From IMG/VR virus record IMGVR_UViG_3300005253_000021, positions 1 through 48,872 of that record: a stretch of 48,872 nt of DNA; one strand, written 5' to 3'. This DNA comes from a virus. The notes beneath the pieces were generated by a model, which was not told the origin of the DNA, searched no databases, and saw only the letters and a program-made list of their open reading frames with translations. The translations under genes and the position numbers were made by a program. This document shows, piece after piece, positions 1,364-26,270 of the stretch. Numbering within the stretch: the stretch's first letter is position 1; each line of letters opens with the position of its first letter.

Positions 1364-1679
1364 ACTTCCTCGGGTTGTCTCCATCATGTATACCCGGTTC
1401 TCGATCTACATTCCCTAACCACCTCTCCCACGGGATACGTTTTACTATCCATACAGCAACTCGATCCGGATGTTCCCAAAGAGTGAGGGCGACATTCCAT
1501 ACTGTCCCACGTTTCGAAGTTACAATCATAATCCACCCGGAGTGTATGCTCGGAGGGATTCGTTTGAAGCCCCCCAATAACTCTACACTCCCACTGGAGA
1601 GGGCCTCACCTATCGCTGGTGTGGGTGGTTTTTCCTCGGCGATCTTAAACAGATCATTCCGAGTTCGTAAATGGACCAT
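1311..1679 (-). CDS. Hypothetical protein
   Basis: 122 residues with several Trp residues around IVKRIPWERWLGNVDRE and a charged C-terminus. It overlaps the end of the GroES-like gene by 26 bases and has only a weak ribosome site (GAAG), so coupled translation is likely. No family was recognised. Confidence 0.65.
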   Translation of the reverse strand: MVHLRTRNDLFKIAEEKPPTPAIGEALSSGSVELLGGFKRIPPSIHSGWIMIVTSKRGTVWNVALTLWEHPDRVAVWIVKRIPWERWLGNVDREPGIHDGDNPRKYEELSARAKTASGYSGS

Positions 1680-2250
1680 CTTCGAGTCTCGCTAATAATC
1701 CCGCGACAGTAATTAGATGATATTTCTCGCCATCTAAATCATACCCGATAATACCCGCGGACATATAAATTATCATATCCCCGGCTTCAAGTGGGATCGG
1801 TATCTGGGCACCTGTATCTGTAAATACGCCAGGTCCACATGCCAATACTTCTCCCTGACAAACCTGATGTCTGGGATCGTTAGATTTTTTCATCCCCTTC
1901 TCAACGTGTTGTGGAACGAGTAAAATTCCACCTGATGAAACTTCTTCCACATGGGGTTTTACCACGATGATATCGCCGAGAGGCATGGGTACACGGTTTT
2001 TAGTTAGACCTACTTTTGGATTAGCCATTTTATTCTCTCCTAAATTAAATTCGTATATAATGGTTGGATTTTTTCGTCGCTCAATGGACGAGGCTTCTTT
2101 TTTTAAATGGTCCGCCCAATACACACATTCTAATACTCGTGGTACTGGCCCCCCAGCCACACATAAAACTATACACTGTGATCGGTGTTCACAAGTTCTC
2201 GTAATTAAGCCTACTTGTTTAGCCATCTTCTTTTGCTGTTTCAGATCCAT
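1654..2250 (-). CDS. GroES-like co-chaperonin with N-terminal extension
   Basis: The C-terminal 124 residues match the chaperonin-10 fold: a start like NRVPMPLGDIIVVKP, a mobile-loop region SSGGILLVP, then a barrel with GEVLACGPGVF, GDMIIYMSAG and a final ITVAGLLARLED. Phage GroES-like proteins (T4 gp31 type) work with host GroEL to fold the capsid protein. Uniquely here the frame stays open upstream for 74 more codons, with four Cys residues and its own AAGGAC site before MDLKQQKKM, while a stronger GGAGAG site precedes an internal ATG at codon 75. Both a 198- and a 124-residue product are therefore possible. If only the short form existed, 234 bases would be left without a gene. Confidence 0.85.
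   Translation of the reverse strand: MDLKQQKKMAKQVGLITRTCEHRSQCIVLCVAGGPVPRVLECVYWADHLKKEASSIERRKNPTIIYEFNLGENKMANPKVGLTKNRVPMPLGDIIVVKPHVEEVSSGGILLVPQHVEKGMKKSNDPRHQVCQGEVLACGPGVFTDTGAQIPIPLEAGDMIIYMSAGIIGYDLDGEKYHLITVAGLLARLEDGPFTNSE
2026..2040 (-). promoter_or_regulatory. Internal ribosome binding site of the GroES-like gene
   Basis: On the minus strand GGAGAG is followed by six A/T bases and ATG (GGAGAGAATAAAATG), the best ribosome site in this neighbourhood. It starts the polypeptide at MANPKVGLTKNR, where the chaperonin-10 homology begins, and may give a short isoform besides the full-length protein. Confidence 0.7.
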
Positions 2251-2884: not shown

Positions 2885-5158
2885 TTACTCCAGAAATTGT
2901 CTCTTGGCATTTTCTCTAACCTGTATCCCGGTGTAGACATAAGTACGTTCTCCCTCTACACGAACTCGTACACGCTCCACAGTGGGTGCCGCTATATGTA
3001 AGAGTTGTCCAAATTGCGGACGACTCGTATGTTCCCGGCCACAGGCTTTACACCAACAAGCCCATAATTCATACAGCCCATGAGCCAGAAGTTTATCACT
3101 GTCTGCCCCGGTAATAATACAACACTCCGAAACAAACTGAGACATTGCATTTGCCGTAATACGAAAGGTGTTTAACTCATCGTGAGAAGATAATGGGAGT
3201 GTAAATTGGCCTCGCTCTCTTAGACGTTTTAATCCTTCTAAAGCCCACGGTACTAATTTATATGCTGATTTTGCTAATCGGCGTTTCAGGCCCCAGTCTT
3301 CCTTCCCGACATAAGAATTCGGAAATGATAGTATATTTAAGCGGGACTCTAATGCTCTCGCCCCATCAGGTATTTCAGGTATGATATTAACTGCCATAGT
3401 AAACTTACAAGTTAATCGAACTGCGGCCCGTACTGCTTTAAACTTAGCATTAACACCTACAGGATCTCCCCCGATTACCTGTAATAATTTCTCGGATGCT
3501 TGGCCAATATTACGCTTCCATCCTACCTTTGCATCCGGTAGAAATGCCGCGGCTTTCCCCTGTAACGGTTCGTATCCAAAATCTGTGGCTAACGCCGATA
3601 ACTCCGTTGACACTACCTGATCGTCTCCGAGCATTGCCATTAAAATTCCAAGTACAGTTCCTTTCCCTGATCGTGGAGGACCGCGGAACATCATCATCTT
3701 TTCAAAACTCATATCCGGAGTTAGATGGTACCCAAACCACTCCTGAATAAGATCAATACAATCCTGTTGATCGTTAAAAATCATACGGAAATAAGATAAG
3801 ATATCTTCTGCGGTAAGGGATGGATCAAAGTCATACGGGATCGCATTCAAACAAAAGTATCGAGGATCTGGATCTAAGGGACGCAGTTCCCCAGCGAAAT
3901 ATCGTTCGAGATCTATAATTCCGTTTTGAAATACAATACAATTCTGTGGTTCTAAATGCTGTTTACCGTCAAGCCATTGTGGGGGATCTCCTGTAATCGT
4001 ACACCATTGATTACAAGCGTCGATAACATTTGTAACCATTGCACGATTAGGCCGGAACTGAGCGTACACCACTTCACCTTTCGGCCCAATCTTTTTATGT
4101 GTCTTCCCTTCAAGGTAAGCATATATCTCTCCCCTCAAGGTGTCCGGATCTACCTTAATATATCGCCCCCGTTGAAAAAACATCCACTGTCCGTTATGAT
4201 TACGAAGAGTAAGGATTTTATTCTGTGAATATTGATCTGCTAAAAATGCAGTCGCGATGGTGGTGGGGCTGTCGTCGTCTAAAACATCCGTAGAGGCTTT
4301 ATCCTCCCCGTGTTCTTCAATATATTCGAGTAATCCCTCGCCTGTAAGTTCACCTCGATTAACCCAATCACGAAGATCCTTAAATCCCTCTAATGGCAAT
4401 AACTTTTGGGTCGAGGGGCAGTATGGTTTAAGGGCATGGAATGTTTGGTTCATTCCAGTTACCCCCACACCGCCATCGCGTTCCCCAATTACTAATACAT
4501 CTAATCCACGTACTACTTTAACAAGGGCTGTTTTTTTGGATGTCGCCGAGGGCCGTCCAATCGCGATAAAGCCCAGATCAAAAGCCGCCGCCACATCAGA
4601 AAAACCCTCGACAACCAAGACGGGGTAATCGGAGGATATAAGTACTGATCGACCAGTTTTGCCAACTCGTCCGGTACTTCTACGAATGTGCAAATAGCCT
4701 GAGTCTTCCCGTTCCTGCACGGCACCATTAGAAACCCGCCCACATAAGACTGCGGACGGATCATGTGGGTCGTCGGCTGAGACGAGGCACCAGTCATTCT
4801 TACCACAGATTGGGCAATTAATATCCCCTCCAGTGCGTCGCCAGTTATGTTTACCGGGTGCATATTTTTTTACTCCTATCTCATAGTCAGGATTTAATAC
4901 GTACGTAAGTCCTCGCTTGGACCCCGATATCATTATTTTTTTACCAGATGAAAATCGTTCCACCAATCCTACGATCTCCCCGGTTTCATCACGTTCTGGG
5001 GAGACCCAAGATTGATGCTCTGGGTTAAAGCCAATGCCGATTGCTGTGAGAGCCTCTATCGAAACCCCCAGACTCTCACTGAATTCATCCAGCATTGCAG
5101 GAAATACATTTTTAACATACTGTTCAAATTGTTCTGCAAAGGTCACAGTAGTCTCCAT
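2885..5158 (-). CDS. DNA primase-helicase (TOPRIM-like plus D5/SF3)
   Basis: 757 residues. Zinc cysteines lie at 115, 118, 124 and 139. A TOPRIM-like strand VLVVEGFSDVAAAF follows near 180-193, and a D5_N-like region and superfamily 3 helicase come next: Walker A GPPRSGKGT at 493-501, Walker B-like AAAFLPDAKV near 536-545, sensor NIIPEIPDGARALESRLNI near 591. The C-terminus looks like the D5 winged-helix end. It would unwind DNA and prime lagging strands for the phage polymerase. The ATG shares one base with the preceding stop (TAATG); an ATG 48 bases upstream is in frame but overlaps that gene. Confidence 0.93.
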   Translation of the reverse strand: METTVTFAEQFEQYVKNVFPAMLDEFSESLGVSIEALTAIGIGFNPEHQSWVSPERDETGEIVGLVERFSSGKKIMISGSKRGLTYVLNPDYEIGVKKYAPGKHNWRRTGGDINCPICGKNDWCLVSADDPHDPSAVLCGRVSNGAVQEREDSGYLHIRRSTGRVGKTGRSVLISSDYPVLVVEGFSDVAAAFDLGFIAIGRPSATSKKTALVKVVRGLDVLVIGERDGGVGVTGMNQTFHALKPYCPSTQKLLPLEGFKDLRDWVNRGELTGEGLLEYIEEHGEDKASTDVLDDDSPTTIATAFLADQYSQNKILTLRNHNGQWMFFQRGRYIKVDPDTLRGEIYAYLEGKTHKKIGPKGEVVYAQFRPNRAMVTNVIDACNQWCTITGDPPQWLDGKQHLEPQNCIVFQNGIIDLERYFAGELRPLDPDPRYFCLNAIPYDFDPSLTAEDILSYFRMIFNDQQDCIDLIQEWFGYHLTPDMSFEKMMMFRGPPRSGKGTVLGILMAMLGDDQVVSTELSALATDFGYEPLQGKAAAFLPDAKVGWKRNIGQASEKLLQVIGGDPVGVNAKFKAVRAAVRLTCKFTMAVNIIPEIPDGARALESRLNILSFPNSYVGKEDWGLKRRLAKSAYKLVPWALEGLKRLRERGQFTLPLSSHDELNTFRITANAMSQFVSECCIITGADSDKLLAHGLYELWACWCKACGREHTSRPQFGQLLHIAAPTVERVRVRVEGERTYVYTGIQVRENAKRQFLE

Positions 5159-6405: not shown

Positions 6406-7261
6406 TACCCCCGAATAAAAATTGCCAAACTGTATCATCGTTCGGGGCATCGAAAGATACTGCTCGATTACCCTCGAACTTTTCAGCACTCCGAGTCTTT
6501 GCTACATAGTGCATTTCGTCCTGAACAAAAATAGCCCGAGATGTACCTCCTGTAGCTTTATGATCTTTATCAACCTCCACACCGAAATGATCGATCTTAA
6601 AGACATGATCTGCCCACTCGCAAAAATATCGACGCACCGAATTTTTCTCCGATGTTGGATGTGATAGCTTTGGACCGGCTTCAAGAAAGTCTAATCCGCC
6701 GGGATTCGCCACTTTAACATTCATAAGCTGACAAATCAGAATCACATTTTTACCTGTCCGAATTAATCTATCACAGTCTGCGGCAAGAGGTATCATTGTA
6801 TCGTATAGATGCTTATATCCTTTACCGAATCCATATCCTTCAAGGTGTTCAACGGTCCCGCCCTTCTCATGTTTAATAGTTCGGAACATAAAGGGTTCAG
6901 CTAATTCTTCCGCGAGAGTAAAAGTATCGATAGCGACGGTATCATATCGCTCAAAAAGTGAAGGTTGCTGTAGGGCATTTCGAATATCAGAGTATGTTTC
7001 AATACCATGAATCTTCTGTAAATCTTCCCCGGTCCGAGGATCTTTTATTTTCTTACCACCGTCATCGATGCCAATAAATACGGGCTGGGGGGCTAACGCG
7101 GCGACAGTTGTTTTCCCCATACCTGATTTTGCGTATAGGAGAATCCGTTCACCCTCGCCCTCATCTTTCCACGGACCGGTGGTAAATGTTTTCATTGGTA
7201 TGGGTGCGGCTTTTGCACTTACTCTTCTATTCTTACTGGGGGCTGGTGGTCCTTTTGGCAT
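6380..7261 (-). CDS. Sak4-like RecA-fold ATPase (AAA_24)
   Basis: 293 residues. Walker A is YAKSGMGKTT (residues 43-52), Walker B is YDTVAIDTF with Asp112, and a later ILICQLMNVKV strand matches the RecA core. Single-domain phage ATPases of this kind (Sak4/AAA_24) work with phage SSBs and exonucleases in annealing or recombination-dependent replication. It lies beside an SSB-like gene on one side and Mom-like and PD-(D/E)XK nuclease genes on the other, which fits a recombination module. The first ~22 residues are basic and Pro-rich and probably disordered. Confidence 0.87.
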   Translation of the reverse strand: MPKGPPAPSKNRRVSAKAAPIPMKTFTTGPWKDEGEGERILLYAKSGMGKTTVAALAPQPVFIGIDDGGKKIKDPRTGEDLQKIHGIETYSDIRNALQQPSLFERYDTVAIDTFTLAEELAEPFMFRTIKHEKGGTVEHLEGYGFGKGYKHLYDTMIPLAADCDRLIRTGKNVILICQLMNVKVANPGGLDFLEAGPKLSHPTSEKNSVRRYFCEWADHVFKIDHFGVEVDKDHKATGGTSRAIFVQDEMHYVAKTRSAEKFEGNRAVSFDAPNDDTVWQFLFGGNDGQTDQK

Positions 7262-7859
7262 TATTATTTCCTTTCGTATTCAATACTAAATCATACCTAT
7301 AGATAAATTTACCTTTTTGCTTAACGTAGTAAGCCCCACCACTATCAAGGGCCTTTTTAATTTTTAACGCGAATGGTTTAAGTTCACCCTTATATTTTGT
7401 CCTAATGGTTTTATCATGGTATCTTTTACCCCCATATATAATAACTCTACCCGGGGCGGACATTCCAACATGTTTAAAATTACTGGCACGATATATAATC
7501 CCTTTGTGTCCGAAATTGGGGTCGGCGTAAGATATAACGGTCTTGATTTCTGTATTGTTTTTGAGCCACCTAAGTGTCAGACCTATAAATCTTGATTCAG
7601 TATTTTTAGGGGTTTCATCTATACAACACAGTCTCCTCAACTCAATAATATCTTCTGCTTTTTCTCCGTATTTTTTCCATTGCCCAGCCATAGCCATTCT
7701 ACCATACAGCATGGCCCCGATCATTTCGGAGTCATTAAAAAGACCGAAACAATAATCCGCTATAACCCCATTTATAGATTTTGAGTAATGCCACGTCTCG
7801 ATAAAAAATCTTATCTGGGTTCTATCCAGCAATTTTATCTGCAAGTCTCTTACGTTAAT
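7233..7859 (-). CDS. Mom-like DNA modification protein (GNAT fold)
   Basis: About 208 residues. It contains ETWHYSKSINGV, GAMLYGRMA, IELRRLCCIDETPKNTESR and VISYADPNFGHKGIIYRASNF, the pattern of the phage Mu Mom family, which modifies adenine in phage DNA and protects it from host restriction. The start is uncertain. No ATG lies where the family begins, and the in-frame ATG at 7952 would need 98 bases inside the nuclease gene. An ATT codon overlaps that gene's TAA and follows GAAGGAAAATAAAA, so ATT or a TTG at 7844 may be used. The end overlaps the ATPase start by 29 bases. Confidence 0.82.
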   Translation of the reverse strand: MNVRDLQIKLLDRTQIRFFIETWHYSKSINGVIADYCFGLFNDSEMIGAMLYGRMAMAGQWKKYGEKAEDIIELRRLCCIDETPKNTESRFIGLTLRWLKNNTEIKTVISYADPNFGHKGIIYRASNFKHVGMSAPGRVIIYGGKRYHDKTIRTKYKGELKPFALKIKKALDSGGAYYVKQKGKFIYRYDLVLNTKGNNNAKRTTSPQ

Positions 7860-9066
7860 TTTTATTTTCCTTCTTTTCGAATATTCTTTTAAATCCCGAT
7901 ATCTCTCCAACTGTAGGATCAACACCATTATAACAGATCGGTATATATTCACAGGCGTATGTGGCTTCGCACTGATCTTCGTTCATCACATACGATTCAT
8001 TCCGAACCATAAACCTAAAGCCTTGGTAGACACTACATATCTGCTTCTGGAAATTTTCGATATCCTTTGGTGTACGAGAAACTTCACGCCGACCAAAATA
8101 AAACTCCGGACGTTCTCCCATATCCTGTAACAATCGCATCCCATACATTTCAGGAGTTTCGCGGATGGCATAAGTTCCTGCTTTGGCCCCGGGTTCAATT
8201 TCAACTTCTTCTCCATCGATGTGAAATTCGCTGAGGTTATCTGTAAGACAGGCTATCTCAAACTTCTTCTCGAAATATTCCCCCGTCCCGACAAACTTTT
8301 TTGAGTCCCCCTGACTCAGTTTTTTTGGGGCGATACTCGGTTTACGTAATCCATCAAATACACATTCTTGAATAAGTGGATCGGTTGCTTTGATCCCGTA
8401 CGGTTCAAGATCCCCGGCGAGTTGTAACTGTTGGGCGGCATACACGTACATACTGATCTGGATATTCAGACGGAGGTTCTCCCAAAATGTGGAGTCCGAA
8501 CCCATCGAACTCGAAGTCGTTTTGTGTTCCATTATCATTGGGATACCGTTTTGGTTACGTACTAACTTATCGATCTTCCCCACGAGTTTACAATTAGGAA
8601 GGGTCCGACCTGTCTTCGGGTTTTTAACGGGGAGATCGAATTTCAACTCAGTGGCGACAGTCTCATATTGGCTGTTACTATAGTACCAATTATATGCCGA
8701 CATACCATATAGTACCTTTACCCGCTCAACAAGCCATTCTGTCCGGTCTTTATTTGCGGGGATATCAGCGTAGAATTTATCCAGATAGTCAACCACCAGT
8801 GGCATTTGATCCTCTTCGATATACCCAGTCCCCCCACAGAAGGGACACTCAGGGTCACTAGCAGATAATTTAGCACAATCGATACAAACTCCTGCGGAGC
8901 GTCCGAGAATTTCTTGGCATCCATGCCATCGATTTCCGAATCGTTGTGTATCGGTGTCTCGGGTTGTTCGTAACCCAAGGTAATATTTCATAAAGCATAA
9001 CCAGTTACATTTCTTATAACTTCTCATAAAACTTGCGGATACATGAGTTGATTTTTTACTGCTCAT
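7855..9066 (-). CDS. PD-(D/E)XK exonuclease, RecB/Cas4-like
   Basis: 403 residues. The active site is LVGKIDKLV (Asp166) followed by MIMEHKTTSS (Glu180, Lys182). An N-terminal KKCNWLC and a C-terminal cysteine trio (CEATYACEYIPIC) could hold an iron-sulfur cluster, as in Cas4/AddB nucleases. A small inserted zinc ribbon lies at Cys61, 64, 74 and 77. Such nucleases process DNA ends in phage recombination, which suits the neighbouring Sak4-like ATPase. The start overlaps the 47-residue gene upstream by 4 bases (ATGA). Confidence 0.87.
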   Translation of the reverse strand: MSSKKSTHVSASFMRSYKKCNWLCFMKYYLGLRTTRDTDTQRFGNRWHGCQEILGRSAGVCIDCAKLSASDPECPFCGGTGYIEEDQMPLVVDYLDKFYADIPANKDRTEWLVERVKVLYGMSAYNWYYSNSQYETVATELKFDLPVKNPKTGRTLPNCKLVGKIDKLVRNQNGIPMIMEHKTTSSSMGSDSTFWENLRLNIQISMYVYAAQQLQLAGDLEPYGIKATDPLIQECVFDGLRKPSIAPKKLSQGDSKKFVGTGEYFEKKFEIACLTDNLSEFHIDGEEVEIEPGAKAGTYAIRETPEMYGMRLLQDMGERPEFYFGRREVSRTPKDIENFQKQICSVYQGFRFMVRNESYVMNEDQCEATYACEYIPICYNGVDPTVGEISGFKRIFEKKENKN

Positions 9067-18940: not shown

Positions 18941-19150
18941 TTACCCATAGATTTTAACCTTTTTAGTTTCATATTGTCCTTTTTGCGATGTAACAATTTG
19001 GTGGTGTCTCCCAGCTTCGTGATTAGCACCACGGACTTTAAAATTACATTCTGGACACCATGCTTTACTGGTTTTAGTTTTTAATCCCATGCGTCTTTTC
19101 TCAGGTCTACAATACAGCGGGCCGGGTTGTCGTTTTTTATCTCTTGGCAT
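18941..19150 (-). CDS. Small basic zinc-knuckle protein
   Basis: 69 residues, strongly basic, with CPEC and HEAGRHH as a possible Cys2His2 site. It overlaps the HNH gene upstream by 14 bases. No family was recognised. A nucleic-acid-binding role is plausible from charge and zinc ligands only. Confidence 0.65.
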   Translation of the reverse strand: MPRDKKRQPGPLYCRPEKRRMGLKTKTSKAWCPECNFKVRGANHEAGRHHQIVTSQKGQYETKKVKIYG

Positions 19151-19601
19151 TATTTCGTGCCCCCTGTAAATACCTTACTGCTCGCATCACACCTTTGAGA
19201 TTATCTTCAAAATACCCCAACCCCATATTGCATGTCCGACATAACAGCCCCCGTATCTTCCCAAGTTCGTGGTCGTGATCGGTATCTATTTTGTTATAGG
19301 CTACAGCCTTACCGCATATCCCGCAACAGCCGTTCTGCTTGAGGTATATTTGTTTATGCTTTTTAAGAGTAATGCCGTAAGCATGTTTAAGTCTTGCAGA
19401 CCAGCCGCGTTCTGAGTGATTGTATTTTCTCTGCGACTCATTAATTCGAGTTCGATTTTTCTTACGGTATTCCTTCGATCTCTGATTTACACACTTCCGA
19501 CAAGCCTCTTGTAGCCCATCCGCTTTTGTCCGATTCTTTTGGAACCTATCCAAAGAGAAGACTCGTCTACAGTTCGAACAAATTTTAGTTTTCTTAGCCA
19601 T
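19137..19601 (-). CDS. Zinc-ribbon endonuclease VII-type HNH protein, predicted leaderless
   Basis: 154 residues. The ribbon is CSNC...KADGLQEACRKC, and the core is YLKQNGCCGIC, TDHDHELGKIRGLLCRTCN and GLGYFEDN, catalytic residues present. The start matches the other family members (M-x-KKTKICSNC). No ribosome site precedes it. Instead a promoter places the expected transcription start on the A of ATG, so the mRNA may be leaderless. An in-frame extension of 31 codons upstream would run through the promoter and is unlikely. Confidence 0.88.
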   Translation of the reverse strand: MAKKTKICSNCRRVFSLDRFQKNRTKADGLQEACRKCVNQRSKEYRKKNRTRINESQRKYNHSERGWSARLKHAYGITLKKHKQIYLKQNGCCGICGKAVAYNKIDTDHDHELGKIRGLLCRTCNMGLGYFEDNLKGVMRAVRYLQGARNNAKR

Positions 19602-19607
19602 CACTAT

Positions 19608-19636
19608 ACCATAGCATTTTTTACTACATTTGTCAA
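19608..19636 (-). promoter_or_regulatory. Class I promoter P6, leftward
   Basis: On the minus strand TTGACA, 17 bases, TATGGT, with an extended TGC before the -10. Six bases later comes the ATG of the HNH gene. An alternative -10, TATAGT, five bases further has poorer spacing (22). Confidence 0.7.
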
Positions 19637-19665
19637 GTGTTTTTTCGATGTTTTTTAAAAATATT

Positions 19666-19767
19666 TCACTCCGCCGGATTACATATCCCAGCATCGATTA
19701 ATGCCTGTGCCTGACGACCGAACCAGTTTTTGTGCGTTTCGAATTTTTCCAGTGCTTTTTTATACAT
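19666..19767 (-). CDS. Possible 33-residue protein
   Basis: A short frame, MYKKALEKFETHKNWFGRQA then QALIDAGICNPAE, with sensible amphipathic composition. No ribosome site; TATAATATTAAT lies just before the ATG. It sits between a zinc-ribbon gene and promoter P6. Length and the missing ribosome site make it uncertain. Confidence 0.35.
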   Translation of the reverse strand: MYKKALEKFETHKNWFGRQAQALIDAGICNPAE

Positions 19768-20795: not shown

Positions 20796-21202
20796 GACAA
20801 TTCTGTCAATTTTAATGCTTTTTGCCATAATTTTGTTCTTACCAGTCTTTTAGCTGCTTTTGCATGATCTGGCCACGATACTGTCTGCTTTACAACCCAT
20901 CGTATCCAATCCATTGATAATTTCAATGCGGGAATATGGTCGGTACATTCGAGTACTTGTGCATAGTACGCATGATATTCTGTTAAGTACATTTCACTGC
21001 CCCAGCAGTGACAATTAGTTAAATGACATTCTGCATGTTTCATTTCATGAGACAAGACCGCAAATTGTTCCTCGTCTGATAGTTGTTTTGCAATTGTAAT
21101 TGTTCGACTTCTCGGGTGATAAAATCCCCCCAAGTTGCCAGATGTTTCAAATTCTATCGGACAAGGGCATAGGTCAATTAGTTCTTGTAGTTTATTATCC
21201 AT
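20792..21202 (-). CDS. Zinc metallopeptidase-like protein, predicted leaderless
   Basis: 136 residues. VLSHEMKHAECH carries an HExxH motif (His52, Glu53, His56), with SEMYLTEYHAYY downstream as the likely third ligand helix. The size and layout resemble IrrE/ImmA-like or SprT-like zincins, which cleave regulators or handle DNA-protein crosslinks. No ribosome site is present. The A of ATG lies exactly at the predicted start of promoter P3, so the mRNA may be leaderless. A start seven codons upstream would lie inside the -10. Confidence 0.7.
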   Translation of the reverse strand: MDNKLQELIDLCPCPIEFETSGNLGGFYHPRSRTITIAKQLSDEEQFAVLSHEMKHAECHLTNCHCWGSEMYLTEYHAYYAQVLECTDHIPALKLSMDWIRWVVKQTVSWPDHAKAAKRLVRTKLWQKALKLTELS

Positions 21203-21208
21203 TCCAAT

Positions 21209-21237
21209 ACTATACCATAACACCTATCTAATGTCAA
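21209..21237 (-). promoter_or_regulatory. Class I promoter P3, leftward
   Basis: TTGACA, 17 bases, TATAGT (extended TGG) on the minus strand. The sequence is nearly identical to P1. The expected +1 coincides with the ATG of the downstream gene. Confidence 0.85.
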
Positions 21238-21284
21238 CACTATTATTCCATGTATGTAAGATATCCATGGACTACTCTTGTTTA
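21209..21284 (-). repeat. Promoter cassette repeat, copy A
   Basis: P3 plus about 45 bases upstream of its -35 that contain GAGTAGTCCATGG, then CTTACATACATGGAATAA. The two CATGG boxes form a dyad (TCCATG...CATGGA). It matches the copies at 21741 and 22027. Confidence 0.75.
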
Positions 21285-21592: not shown

Positions 21593-21740
21593 TTTATTCT
21601 CCATTCTCTTAAACTCCATTATCTGTTAAAAACGTGAAACAGGCAATACCGTAGTATCCGCTTCTTAAGACTGTTTTGACCCCAATAGGCTTATTGATTT
21701 TGCTATTGTTCCCGCAAGCCGCTGTCCCACTTCAATTAGT

Positions 21741-21769
21741 ACTATACCATATTACCCGGTTAATGTCAA
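21741..21769 (-). promoter_or_regulatory. Class I promoter P2, leftward
   Basis: TTGACA, 17 bases, TATAGT (extended TGG) on the minus strand. Confidence 0.85.
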
Positions 21770-21815
21770 GACTATTATCCATGATCCATAAGTTTTTCAT
21801 AGACTACTCTATTTT
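21741..21815 (-). repeat. Promoter cassette repeat, copy B
   Basis: P2 plus the upstream block with GAGTAGTCTATG and CATGGATAATAG. It is the most diverged of the three copies, but spacing to the -35 is kept. Confidence 0.7.
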
Positions 21816-21976: not shown

Positions 21977-22026
21977 TTTATGCCCCTGTCTCTTAAACAT
22001 CATTATCTGTTAATTACTATTCCAGC

Positions 22027-22055
22027 ATCATACCATAACACCTATCTAATGTCAA
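22027..22055 (-). promoter_or_regulatory. Class I promoter P1, leftward
   Basis: TTGACA, 17 bases, TATGAT (extended TGG) on the minus strand. It is the outermost promoter of the left arm, next to the control region. Confidence 0.82.
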
Positions 22056-22102
22056 GCACTTTATTCCATGTACGTAAGTTTTCCATGGACTACTCTATTG
22101 TG
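22027..22102 (-). repeat. Promoter cassette repeat, copy C
   Basis: P1 plus the upstream block with GAGTAGTCCATGG and CTTACGTACATGGAATAA. The spacer of P1 is identical to that of P3, pointing to recent duplication. Confidence 0.75.
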
Positions 22103-22452: not shown

Positions 22453-22479
22453 TGTCCCTAGTGTCCCTAGAGAAAGGGG
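22453..22479. repeat. 27-base inverted repeat, left arm
   Basis: It is perfectly complementary to 22574-22600 across a 94-base spacer. It starts with two tandem TGTCCCTAG units and ends with AGAAAGGGG. CTCTATAGAG, a small palindrome, lies just inside at 22489-22498. Confidence 0.9.
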
Positions 22480-22573
22480 TAAAGGTAGCTCTATAGAGAG
22501 AGCATATACGTATATATAAATGTATAGATATAGAAATATATGAAAGTACCTCTTAATAGAGAAGGGTTTTTCG

Positions 22574-22600
22574 CCCCTTTCTCTAGGGACACTAGGGACA
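22574..22600. repeat. 27-base inverted repeat, right arm
   Basis: The exact reverse complement of 22453-22479, with two tandem CTAGGGACA units. The enclosed 94 bases are mostly A and T, as at duplex-unwinding elements. Confidence 0.9.
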
Positions 22601-22762: not shown

Positions 22763-22793
22763 ATAAAAATATATAAAATAATAAGAAATTCAT

Positions 22794-22821
22794 TTGCAAA
22801 ATACGGGGTTTCGGCTATGTT
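22794..22821 (+). promoter_or_regulatory. Class II promoter a, rightward
   Basis: TTGCAA, 16 bases, TATGTT. It is the first promoter-like site of the right arm; a leader of about 50 bases precedes the first gene. The same hexamers and spacing occur at 23535, 24678 and on the minus strand at 16415. Confidence 0.6.
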
Positions 22822-22879
22822 ATGTATGAAGACATTAATCTAAACGGGAAGAGATCTTATTTTTAAGAAGGGGAATATA

Positions 22880-23128
22880 ATGGGGATAAACAATAGGCTG
22901 CATAAAGGCGACGATGATGACTTCAGAATGGCCGAGCAGGAAGAAATCCTCGCACAGGTGTTCACTGATCAAAGAGGGTTATGTATGGGGTGTGGAGAGG
23001 CTGCCCCCTTCCGTAATATGCGGCCACAGTTTAATCGCGAGACGGAAACACTCAGGGGGTTAATATGTTCCACCTGTACCCCATGGGGATCAATATCAGA
23101 AGGGGGCGTAAATAATGAAGACCTGTAG
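22880..23128 (+). CDS. Catalytically dead endonuclease VII-like zinc protein 1
   Basis: 82 residues. The core frame of the HNH family is kept: VFTDQRGLCMGCGEA (as in YxxQxGxCxxC) and LRGLICSTC (as in RGLLCxxCN). The stretch that should read TDHxH is PQFNR and the terminal Asn is Thr, so catalytic Asp, His and Asn are gone while four zinc cysteines remain. The N-terminal ribbon is replaced by a short acidic start. AAGGGG precedes the ATG. As the first gene of the right arm, a DNA-binding regulator role is attractive but inferred. Confidence 0.75.
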   Translation: MGINNRLHKGDDDDFRMAEQEEILAQVFTDQRGLCMGCGEAAPFRNMRPQFNRETETLRGLICSTCTPWGSISEGGVNNEDL

Positions 23129-23426
23129 AAAATGTAAAAATGACCGTGATGATTTCCAACCAGATGGCCGATCAAAAGATGGTCTCTCTGTTGAATGCGA
23201 TGACTGTCGAACTGTCGGGATCGGCACCGATGAAAGATACGTTCGAATGTATATCGAACAAAGACAGCGATGTAAGATCTGTAACCGCTCTGCGTATCTG
23301 AGTAAAATGGTCATAGATTCCGGTACTGAAACTGAGGCCATAATTTGCACAACCTGTGCGGGTCTACTCAAACTCGCCCGGAAGAATCGCCGGGTCTGGG
23401 ATGCGGTTACTGAGTACCTGTCTTGA
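23115..23426 (+). CDS. Catalytically dead endonuclease VII-like zinc protein 2
   Basis: 103 residues. The family zinc ribbon is present (CRKC...RSKDGLSVECDDC), then MYIEQRQRCKICNR and IICTTCAGLL align with the HNH core. The catalytic DHxH segment is missing (VIDSG in its place) and the final Asn is Ala. The basic linker is lost too. It overlaps the preceding gene by 14 bases. The pair looks like homing endonucleases reduced to zinc-binding proteins. Confidence 0.78.
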   Translation: MKTCRKCKNDRDDFQPDGRSKDGLSVECDDCRTVGIGTDERYVRMYIEQRQRCKICNRSAYLSKMVIDSGTETEAIICTTCAGLLKLARKNRRVWDAVTEYLS

Positions 23427-23483
23427 GTGAAGTACTAATTTAACATGGATTAGTTTTAAAATATAAATCTACTACATACCTGT

Positions 23484-23509
23484 CCTACGTAGTATACATA
23501 CTACATAGG
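23484..23509. promoter_or_regulatory. Large palindrome upstream of promoter b
   Basis: CCTAcGTAGTATacATACTACaTAGG: a 16-base core GTAGTAT-N2-ATACTAC is perfectly symmetrical, and the outer CCTA/TAGG extends it with one mismatch. It ends 25 bases before the -35 of promoter b, a typical activator or repressor site. Confidence 0.65.
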
Positions 23510-23534
23510 ATGAGATTAATTTATCATAAATAAT

Positions 23535-23562
23535 TTGCAAATGCCATGGATCTGACTATGTA
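23535..23562 (+). promoter_or_regulatory. Class II promoter b, rightward
   Basis: TTGCAA, 16 bases, TATGTA (continuing TATAAG). Its expected start is at about 23569, at the foot of the following hairpin. Confidence 0.6.
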
Positions 23563-23565
23563 TAA

Positions 23566-23626
23566 GTGTGGGGCGGGGTGCGTTGGAGTCCGACCGGTAA
23601 GGCAGGCCATCCCCTCGACCCCACAC
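23566..23626 (+). ncRNA. Structured 5' leader RNA
   Basis: GTGTGGGG at the 5' end pairs with CCCCACAC at the 3' end. Inside, GGGGTG pairs with CATCCCC, and GTTGG with CCGAC as a small inner hairpin. Transcription from promoter b would begin at the base of this structure. It does not fit a tRNA (61 bases, no T arm). It may protect the mRNA 5' end or act as a regulatory leader. Confidence 0.5.
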
Positions 23627-23644
23627 CATATTAAAGGGGCAAAA

Positions 23645-25234: not shown

Positions 25235-25768
25235 ATGGATTTCCTAAATAGGATATTTGAGATCTTGTGGAAATTTATTCCGAGGATTAAAATTATACAG
25301 CCCGATGAATTGGCCGTAAGAGTAACTCTGGGAACTAGGGAAAAAGTTCTTTATCCCGGCTGGTATTTGTTCTTAGGGATATTCCAAGAGATTTTCTATA
25401 CGACGGTTACTACTCAGATAAAGGATCTGAGAAGCCAGAGTGTTGCGTCGAAGGGGGGTCGCGATTTAATACTGAGCGGGGCGATTAAATATAAAGTTGT
25501 CGATATTCGTAAAGCCATGCTTGAAGTACAAGATTATGATCGGTCTTTAGAGGCCCTTTGTTTAGGGGTCTTATTGGCCGTGGTAAGTACTATGACCGAG
25601 AAAGAGTTGATGGACACTGAGAAATTAGGTGAAAATATATTGAAGAAGACTCGTGAAGAGGCCGCGGGTTGGGGGTTAAAACTTCAGAAAGTCTATATCA
25701 CAGATCTGGGAAAAGCCAGAAATATCAGGTTGCTGACGAATAATACGGGGGTTTGTTTAAATGGGTAA
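25235..25768 (+). CDS. SPFH/band-7 (stomatin-like) protein
   Basis: 177 residues from MDFLNRIFEILWKF. A hydrophobic or amphipathic N-terminus leads into IIQPDELAVRVTLG, LYPGWYLF and TTVTTQIKDLRSQS, then LSGAIKYKVVDIRKAML, EKELMDTEKLGENI and EEAAGWGLKLQKVYITDLGK, a canonical SPFH domain without the usual C-terminal coiled coil. SPFH proteins organise membranes and control membrane proteases. A secreted serine protease is encoded about 850 bases downstream. The end overlaps the HNH gene by 8 bases; possible roles are lysis timing, membrane protection or exclusion. Confidence 0.82.
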   Translation: MDFLNRIFEILWKFIPRIKIIQPDELAVRVTLGTREKVLYPGWYLFLGIFQEIFYTTVTTQIKDLRSQSVASKGGRDLILSGAIKYKVVDIRKAMLEVQDYDRSLEALCLGVLLAVVSTMTEKELMDTEKLGENILKKTREEAAGWGLKLQKVYITDLGKARNIRLLTNNTGVCLNG

Positions 25769-26270
25769 GAAAAAACGATGCCCTGATTGCGAGAAAGAAC
25801 TTCGATCAGGGGAGTTTTATACGAATAAGTCCAAAAAAGGGGGGCTGAGTAGTTATTGTCGAGAGTGTACTCGCCGACAAAGTAGAAAATACCGTAAAAA
25901 TAATTTGGCAAAATGTCACGGATATGAAAGAAAATACCGCCGAACAGAACAAGGTCAAAAAATATCCCGCGAGACTGCGAGAAAATATCGCCAGTCAGAG
26001 CAAGGTCGGAGAGTACATCGTCGTAACCAACTTAGAATTAAATATGGTCTAACCCCCGAACAACACGAACAAATATATCTTGACCAGAATGGCTGTTGTG
26101 CCCTCTGCGGGGATTTAGTGGCTTACGATAGGGTGAATGTTGACCACGATCACCGAACCAGCAGAATCCGGGGATTACTATGTAATCGTTGTAATCACGG
26201 GCTTGGGAGTTTTGGAGATACTCTTGAAGGCCTACAAAAAGCAGTGAACTATTTAAAGGAAGGGGATTAA
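25761..26270 (+). CDS. Zinc-ribbon endonuclease VII-type HNH protein
   Basis: 169 residues. The ribbon is CPDC...KKGGLSSYCREC; the linker repeats YRRTEQGQK-like units. The core is YLDQNGCCALC, VDHDHRTSRIRGLLCNRCN and GLGSFGDT, catalytic residues present. It is inserted between the SPFH and downstream genes, overlapping the SPFH end. It is the only intact endonuclease VII-type member on the right arm. Confidence 0.9.
   Translation: MGKKKRCPDCEKELRSGEFYTNKSKKGGLSSYCRECTRRQSRKYRKNNLAKCHGYERKYRRTEQGQKISRETARKYRQSEQGRRVHRRNQLRIKYGLTPEQHEQIYLDQNGCCALCGDLVAYDRVNVDHDHRTSRIRGLLCNRCNHGLGSFGDTLEGLQKAVNYLKEGD

Follow-up and report, generated by a model that had tools for sequence, protein, structure and literature searches.

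Two adjacent short genes at the head of the rightward arm of a virus genome, here called A and B, encode what appear to be endonuclease VII-derived proteins that have lost catalysis and kept their zinc cysteines and open frames. In one syntenic slot shared with related phages, B occurs with the Asp-His-Asn set, in a partly changed form and, in the genome analysed here, in a form predicted to be dead, beside a set of A proteins that all appear dead. We consider it about an even chance that A and B are accessory, non-catalytic zinc-scaffold proteins, with A perhaps a partner subunit of B.

The two genes and their setting

The window, that is, the whole stretch of DNA analysed, is the entire virus record IMGVR_UViG_3300005253_000021 (48,872 bases), which has a direct terminal repeat of 121 bp. 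The left arm is transcribed leftward and holds the replication genes, its genes including a D5-type primase-helicase, PolA, an AAA ATPase, a PD-(D/E)XK nuclease, a dGTPase-like protein and a Mom-like DNA modification protein (7233-7952, minus strand). A Cpn10 (co-chaperonin-like) domain is encoded at 1654-2250 (minus strand), and an 87-nt repeat occurs in three copies amid small left-arm genes (21192-21278, 21724-21810 and 22010-22096), possibly as repeated leftward promoters. The right arm runs rightward, opens with A and B and carries the terminase, portal and structural genes. The features of its head, and two intact enzymes that served as yardsticks, are the following.

22453..22600, no strand: control region ('iterons'), a 27-bp perfect inverted repeat of GTCCCTAG units
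22793..22830, plus strand: promoter a, TTTGCAAAATACGGGGTTTCGGCTATGTTATG, a sigma70-like element conserved in the phage clade
22880..23128, plus strand: gene A, 82 aa, endonuclease VII-like zinc knuckle, predicted catalytic residues gone, C-terminal helix apparently absent
23115..23426, plus strand: gene B, 103 aa, zinc ribbon and endonuclease VII-like domain, His and Asn gone, Asp retained
23483..23510, no strand: palindrome TCCTACGTAGTATACATACTACATAGGA, the best of the window, 57 nt behind B
23534..23570, plus strand: promoter b, of the same family as promoter a
19137..19694, minus strand: intact endonuclease VII-like gene
25761..26270, plus strand: intact endonuclease VII-like gene, D-H-D-H and N

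A sequence-only reading of the window had placed A and B first in the right arm behind promoter a, and this was borne out, the promoter being conserved and rightward. The element TTTGCAAA-N13-GCTATG is matched exactly twice in the window, where 0 matches are expected, and a similar element (TTGMAAAA, about 13-15 nt, GCGATAGTATAGT) stands at the right-arm head in all four relatives described below (L013, L021, L032 and L033), which supports promoter a as real. A and B overlap by 14 nt, with both frames present, and G-rich stretches resembling ribosome sites lie upstream (judged by eye); the two genes would be co-transcribed, with translational coupling probable.

More copies of promoter a lie at 19637 (minus), 16443 (minus) and 24677 (plus), the first of them inside the annotated start of the HNH gene at 19137-19694; that gene probably begins further in than annotated. 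A hairpin-forming segment (23566-23628, GTGTGGGGCGGGG...CCCCACACC), directly downstream of a same-family promoter, is conserved in L021 (6225-6290), with folding energies of -32 (window) and -33 kcal/mol (L021) and z of -2.3 and -3.5, respectively. It lies downstream of B in the window and upstream of B in L021, and therefore B and the segment have swapped order. No group I intron or other RNA family was found at the gathering threshold.

Catalytic residues and zinc sites of A and B

The assignment of both proteins to the endonuclease VII-like HNH family was upheld, although by profile it is weak: Pfam Endonuclease_7 matched A at E = 0.0023 and B at E = 0.009, both under the curated cut-off. 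PHROG 2633 ('endonuclease VII'), a family of small phage proteins, matched the whole length of B at 1.1e-9, although B is without two of the three key residues. We regard the predicted endonuclease VII origin of A and B as real but weak by profile. Two CxxC zinc pairs bracket a hairpin in each protein, as in the beta-beta-alpha-Me fold of endonuclease VII and HNH enzymes, and the zinc cysteines are all retained (4/4 in A; 8/8 in B, including 4/4 in its HNH part).

T4 endonuclease VII (gp49; PDB 1en7, 1e7l, 2qnf) has the same zinc Cys4 knuckle and beta-beta-alpha layout, and its activity depends on Asp40, His41 and Asn62 (PMC5481773). In a common alignment, the five intact endonuclease VII-like enzymes of the window, which also has one further zinc-ribbon HNH gene, read D-H-[DN]-H and N at the active site. 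In A, Q-F-N-R replaces D-H-D-H and the final Asn has become Thr, so that the equivalents of the three T4 residues are Q, F and T; the residue table here agreed with the earlier reading (PQFNR and T). B reads D-S-G-T and A, the catalytic His having become Ser and the final Asn Ala (equivalents D, S and A). The claim that the Asp-His pair and the Asn had all been replaced in B held for His and Asn and failed for Asp: D68, the equivalent of the metal-binding Asp40 of T4, is retained and is invariant across the B alignments. Thus, compared with the T4 enzyme, both proteins are without the His41 and Asn62 equivalents and A also without that of Asp40. The N-terminal zinc ribbon is absent from A, as is most of the tail past the second CxxC, and neither protein has the long C-terminal part of the T4 enzyme. 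These residues predict that A and B are non-catalytic.

It is highly improbable, in our judgement, that B remains a nuclease, as an atypical endonuclease VII in which other residues take over. The invariant Asp68 would fit such an enzyme, as would the order of zinc ribbon and HNH domain, which is that of Hpy99I (PDB 3fc3), a beta-beta-alpha-Me restriction enzyme that the B family matches over the full profile length (E 1.6e-5). However, Hpy99I is catalytic and B is predicted not to be: small residues stand in place of the general-base His and the metal-binding Asn, three residues are deleted from the loop, and Asp40, His41 and Asn62 are all required in the T4 enzyme (PMC5481773).

The idea that A is a frameshifted fragment of a longer enzyme was rejected, as A starts directly behind the promoter, as in L033; by eye, no HNH tail is present in other frames past the last CxxC.

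Structure prediction, proposed by the earlier reading as a check, gave T4 endonuclease VII as the best structural match to both models (A, pLDDT 75: Z 7.0, 59 aligned, 3.1 A; B, pLDDT 82: Z 6.3, 67 aligned, 3.7 A). A Z below 8 is modest, and the alignments behind the models contained endonuclease VII rows, which favours this fold; the match thus suggests compatibility with the fold and is not independent proof of it. In the B model, a helix after the second CxxC (H79-90) completes the beta-beta-alpha unit. The A model retains the zinc knuckle and a long helix at the N terminus and stops shortly past the second CxxC, with no helix there and a model confidence below 50.

A shared slot in related phages

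A terminase scan gave four relatives of the window, all uncultured, with terminase identities of 87-88% (L021), 82% (L032), 82% (L013) and 78% (L033). The counterparts of A and B are listed below.

L033, 3554-3790: A-like gene, positional counterpart of A
L033, 3790-4239: B orthologue
L032, 5278-5505 and 5515-5775: A-like genes, two tandem copies, positional counterparts of A
L032, 5908-6327: B orthologue
L021, 6314-6652: B orthologue

Behind the promoter, L033 has A and then B, with overlapping stop and start; L032 has the two A-like genes, a 53-aa gene and B; and L021 has B alone, with no A. L013 has neither gene behind the same type of promoter at the head of its right arm, and its comparison with the window for a homing insertion showed A and B absent at that place and yielded no clean insertion boundary.

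Dead homologs at the same place, which the earlier reading had expected, were found for A, one in L033 and two in tandem in L032. All four A-like copies, including that of the window, appear dead and retain 4/4 zinc cysteines, and they extend 3-16 residues past the last motif position, compared with 20-31 in the others. The L033 protein and the second L032 copy are 54% identical, with the zinc cysteines kept and the active site gone. A of the window belongs to this set, all of whose members are predicted to be dead, but it is only 19-26% identical to the other copies in the alignment and its placement in the tree is unsure (branch 3.42). Rather than an orthologue of the others, it may be a dead copy of separate origin.

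For B, the search for conserved dead homologs had the opposite outcome, as Asp, His and Asn are all present in the L032 and L033 orthologues from that position, which may be active enzymes. The B proteins, including the window copy, form one clade in the tree (support 99/97), in which the active-site letters are DHDP/N (L032 and L033), DYDR/N (L021, with His changed to Tyr) and DSGT/A (window); the second His of D-H-D-H is absent from all copies, with Pro there in L032 and L033. Judged by these letters, B is fully disabled in the window lineage only, and L021 shows a partial change. Since the sequence-only reading had named homologs with restored catalytic residues as evidence against it, and the L032 and L033 proteins carry Asp-His-Asn, its claim for B is unsupported as stated.

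A search for A and B orthologues among 50,697 isolated phage records gave distant endonuclease VII matches only, with no A orthologue, and viral contigs scanned with A or B singly gave no orthologue. A was not found in bacterial genomes, and the wider terminase relatives (about 50%) had just scattered HNH genes, with no A or B, in the available sequence. Contigs L035-L037, found with the A protein of L033, were rejected as carriers of A because they have intact enzymes and come from unrelated phages. Slightly behind B, the right arm of L032 carries an MgtC-family membrane protein gene (6568-6978, plus strand; Pfam E 1.3e-38).

Selection, proposed roles and precedents

Synonymous sites were saturated, which made dN/dS unusable for A and B. 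Identity at codon positions 1, 2 and 3 was 0.59, 0.63 and 0.32 for B (window and L032) and 0.50, 0.58 and 0.26 for A (window and first L032 copy), so that third positions are nearly random and positions 1 and 2 conserved (0.50-0.63), in a comparison that was built on protein alignments and hence leans towards positions 1 and 2. When neutral substitutions were simulated on the L032 B gene up to the observed divergence, none of 20,000 runs retained all eight B cysteines (mean 1.5 of 8) and 0.7% had an open frame. B has kept its zinc cysteines and frame contrary to what neutral drift predicts, and A has the same pattern; for A of the window, the argument for selection consists of the kept cysteines and frame. 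Neither gene has a broken frame or lost structural residues and, as the earlier reading held, they do not look like pseudogenes. Catalysis lost with the fold under selection, as in a domesticated nuclease, is the pattern indicated for both, most strongly for B.

B of the window also evolves faster than the surrounding genes: between the window and L021, terminase is 88% identical and B 30%, and L021 B is 49-57% identical to the L032 and L033 proteins. Such a rate fits a fold that stayed under selection after the constraint of catalysis was lost. It would also suit an ex-homing cassette with no present role, its enzyme function lost and the rest slowly going, and so would the graded loss within the B clade, the absence of the pair from L013 and the case of I-TevIII, a dead homing enzyme of T4, inactive by deletion, whose RB3 orthologue is functional (PMC2988022), much as B has relatives with Asp-His-Asn. 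Such fading seems unlikely to us, as 8/8 cysteines with open frames are unexpected under neutral drift, codon conservation is position-specific, and dead A copies of two phages are still 54% identical.

In the accessory-protein reading, endonuclease VII/HNH nucleases would have become established downstream of the clade's first rightward promoter and given rise to A and B; the ancestral enzyme may have acted in homing or in junction resolution. The ancestor of B would have been a compact endonuclease VII-like protein whose Asp-His-Asn persists in two relatives and was disabled in the window lineage. Both proteins would act without cutting, as accessory binding proteins, and A, with its N-terminal helix and zinc knuckle kept, would be a non-catalytic partner of B. 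The N-terminal helices of T4 endonuclease VII take part in its dimer. In the window and L033, A directly precedes B, and in L032 one short gene separates them; this adjacency and the overlap of A and B, together with the kept helix, suggest the partner role as the likeliest specific mechanism for A. Against it, L021 has B without A, and A is therefore not obligatory. A may at first have modulated a catalytically active B, a state that L032 and L033 may preserve; in the window, the two would form an all-dead complex occupying DNA junctions or a protein partner. That the clade carries a nuclease-pseudonuclease pair, and that the window complex lost catalysis and came to bind DNA or protein in a structural or regulatory role, is a tentative proposal that we hold to be rather doubtful.

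The sequence-only reading had favoured DNA-binding regulators acting on the iterons or the palindrome. As an autoregulator, B or an A-B complex would bind near promoters a and b or the palindrome at 23483 and repress or activate the right arm. The placement behind a conserved promoter points this way, as do the palindrome behind B, matched in L033 by a perfect palindrome of 26 bp in the corresponding position (4251-4276), the weakly basic B with its zinc ribbon kept, and two precedents: I-TevI, a phage homing enzyme of T4 that is an autorepressor at its own late promoter (PMC2988022), and CapR of PLE satellites, a homing-endonuclease-derived zinc-finger repressor of a phage capsid operon (PMC10448857). 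However, the net charge is +19 to +31 in the intact enzymes of the window, +4 in B and -6 in A (pI 4.6), and their Lys/Arg-rich linker is missing from both proteins, which disfavours a simple DNA-binding regulator. The window and L033 palindromes are unrelated in sequence, and none comparable lies behind B in L032 or L021. The 27-bp inverted repeat was not found in the relatives having A or B, relatives sharing CTGTCCCTAG short motifs alone with the control region, and the iteron idea was rejected because the long repeat is not conserved. L013, at 82% terminase identity, uses the same promoter with neither gene. Autoregulation thus appears unlikely, and direct repression of promoters a and b by B, in the manner of I-TevI, is our second choice after the partner mechanism.

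Nuclease-derived proteins that do not cut, or that regulate, are already known in WhiA, CapR, dead I-TevIII and the I-TevI autorepressor. WhiA, a degenerate LAGLIDADG homing endonuclease serving as a transcription factor (PMC3781837), resembles A and B in keeping its (homing) nuclease fold after loss of the catalytic residues, but it belongs to another nuclease family and binds DNA via an extra HTH domain that A and B do not have. CapR shows that a zinc protein from a phage homing gene controlling structural genes is a known outcome; it derives from the DNA-binding part of T5orf172 genes, whereas in A and B it is the nuclease part that is kept. I-TevI differs in being still catalytic and in its DNA-binding architecture. 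The new element is an endonuclease VII-type case in which stages of loss can be seen together at a single slot across related uncultured phages; a limited literature text search found no earlier report of such a case. Phage HNH genes are usually viewed as selfish nucleases, and with these natural proteins the step from nuclease to non-cutting protein becomes directly testable and the ancestral and repurposed forms can be compared.

Near the left-arm head, a more distant relative (L099, 4642-5193, minus strand) carries an endonuclease VII-like gene with zinc cysteines kept and active site lost (CKVCGGSQPAGRAMSAYPGGLTCVRCT). Zinc-ribbon-only HNH-associated proteins, with no nuclease domain, are also encoded near the left-arm head in L055 (4528-5085, minus strand; same gene in L016), L059 (3396-3839, minus strand) and L083 (3318-3889, minus strand).
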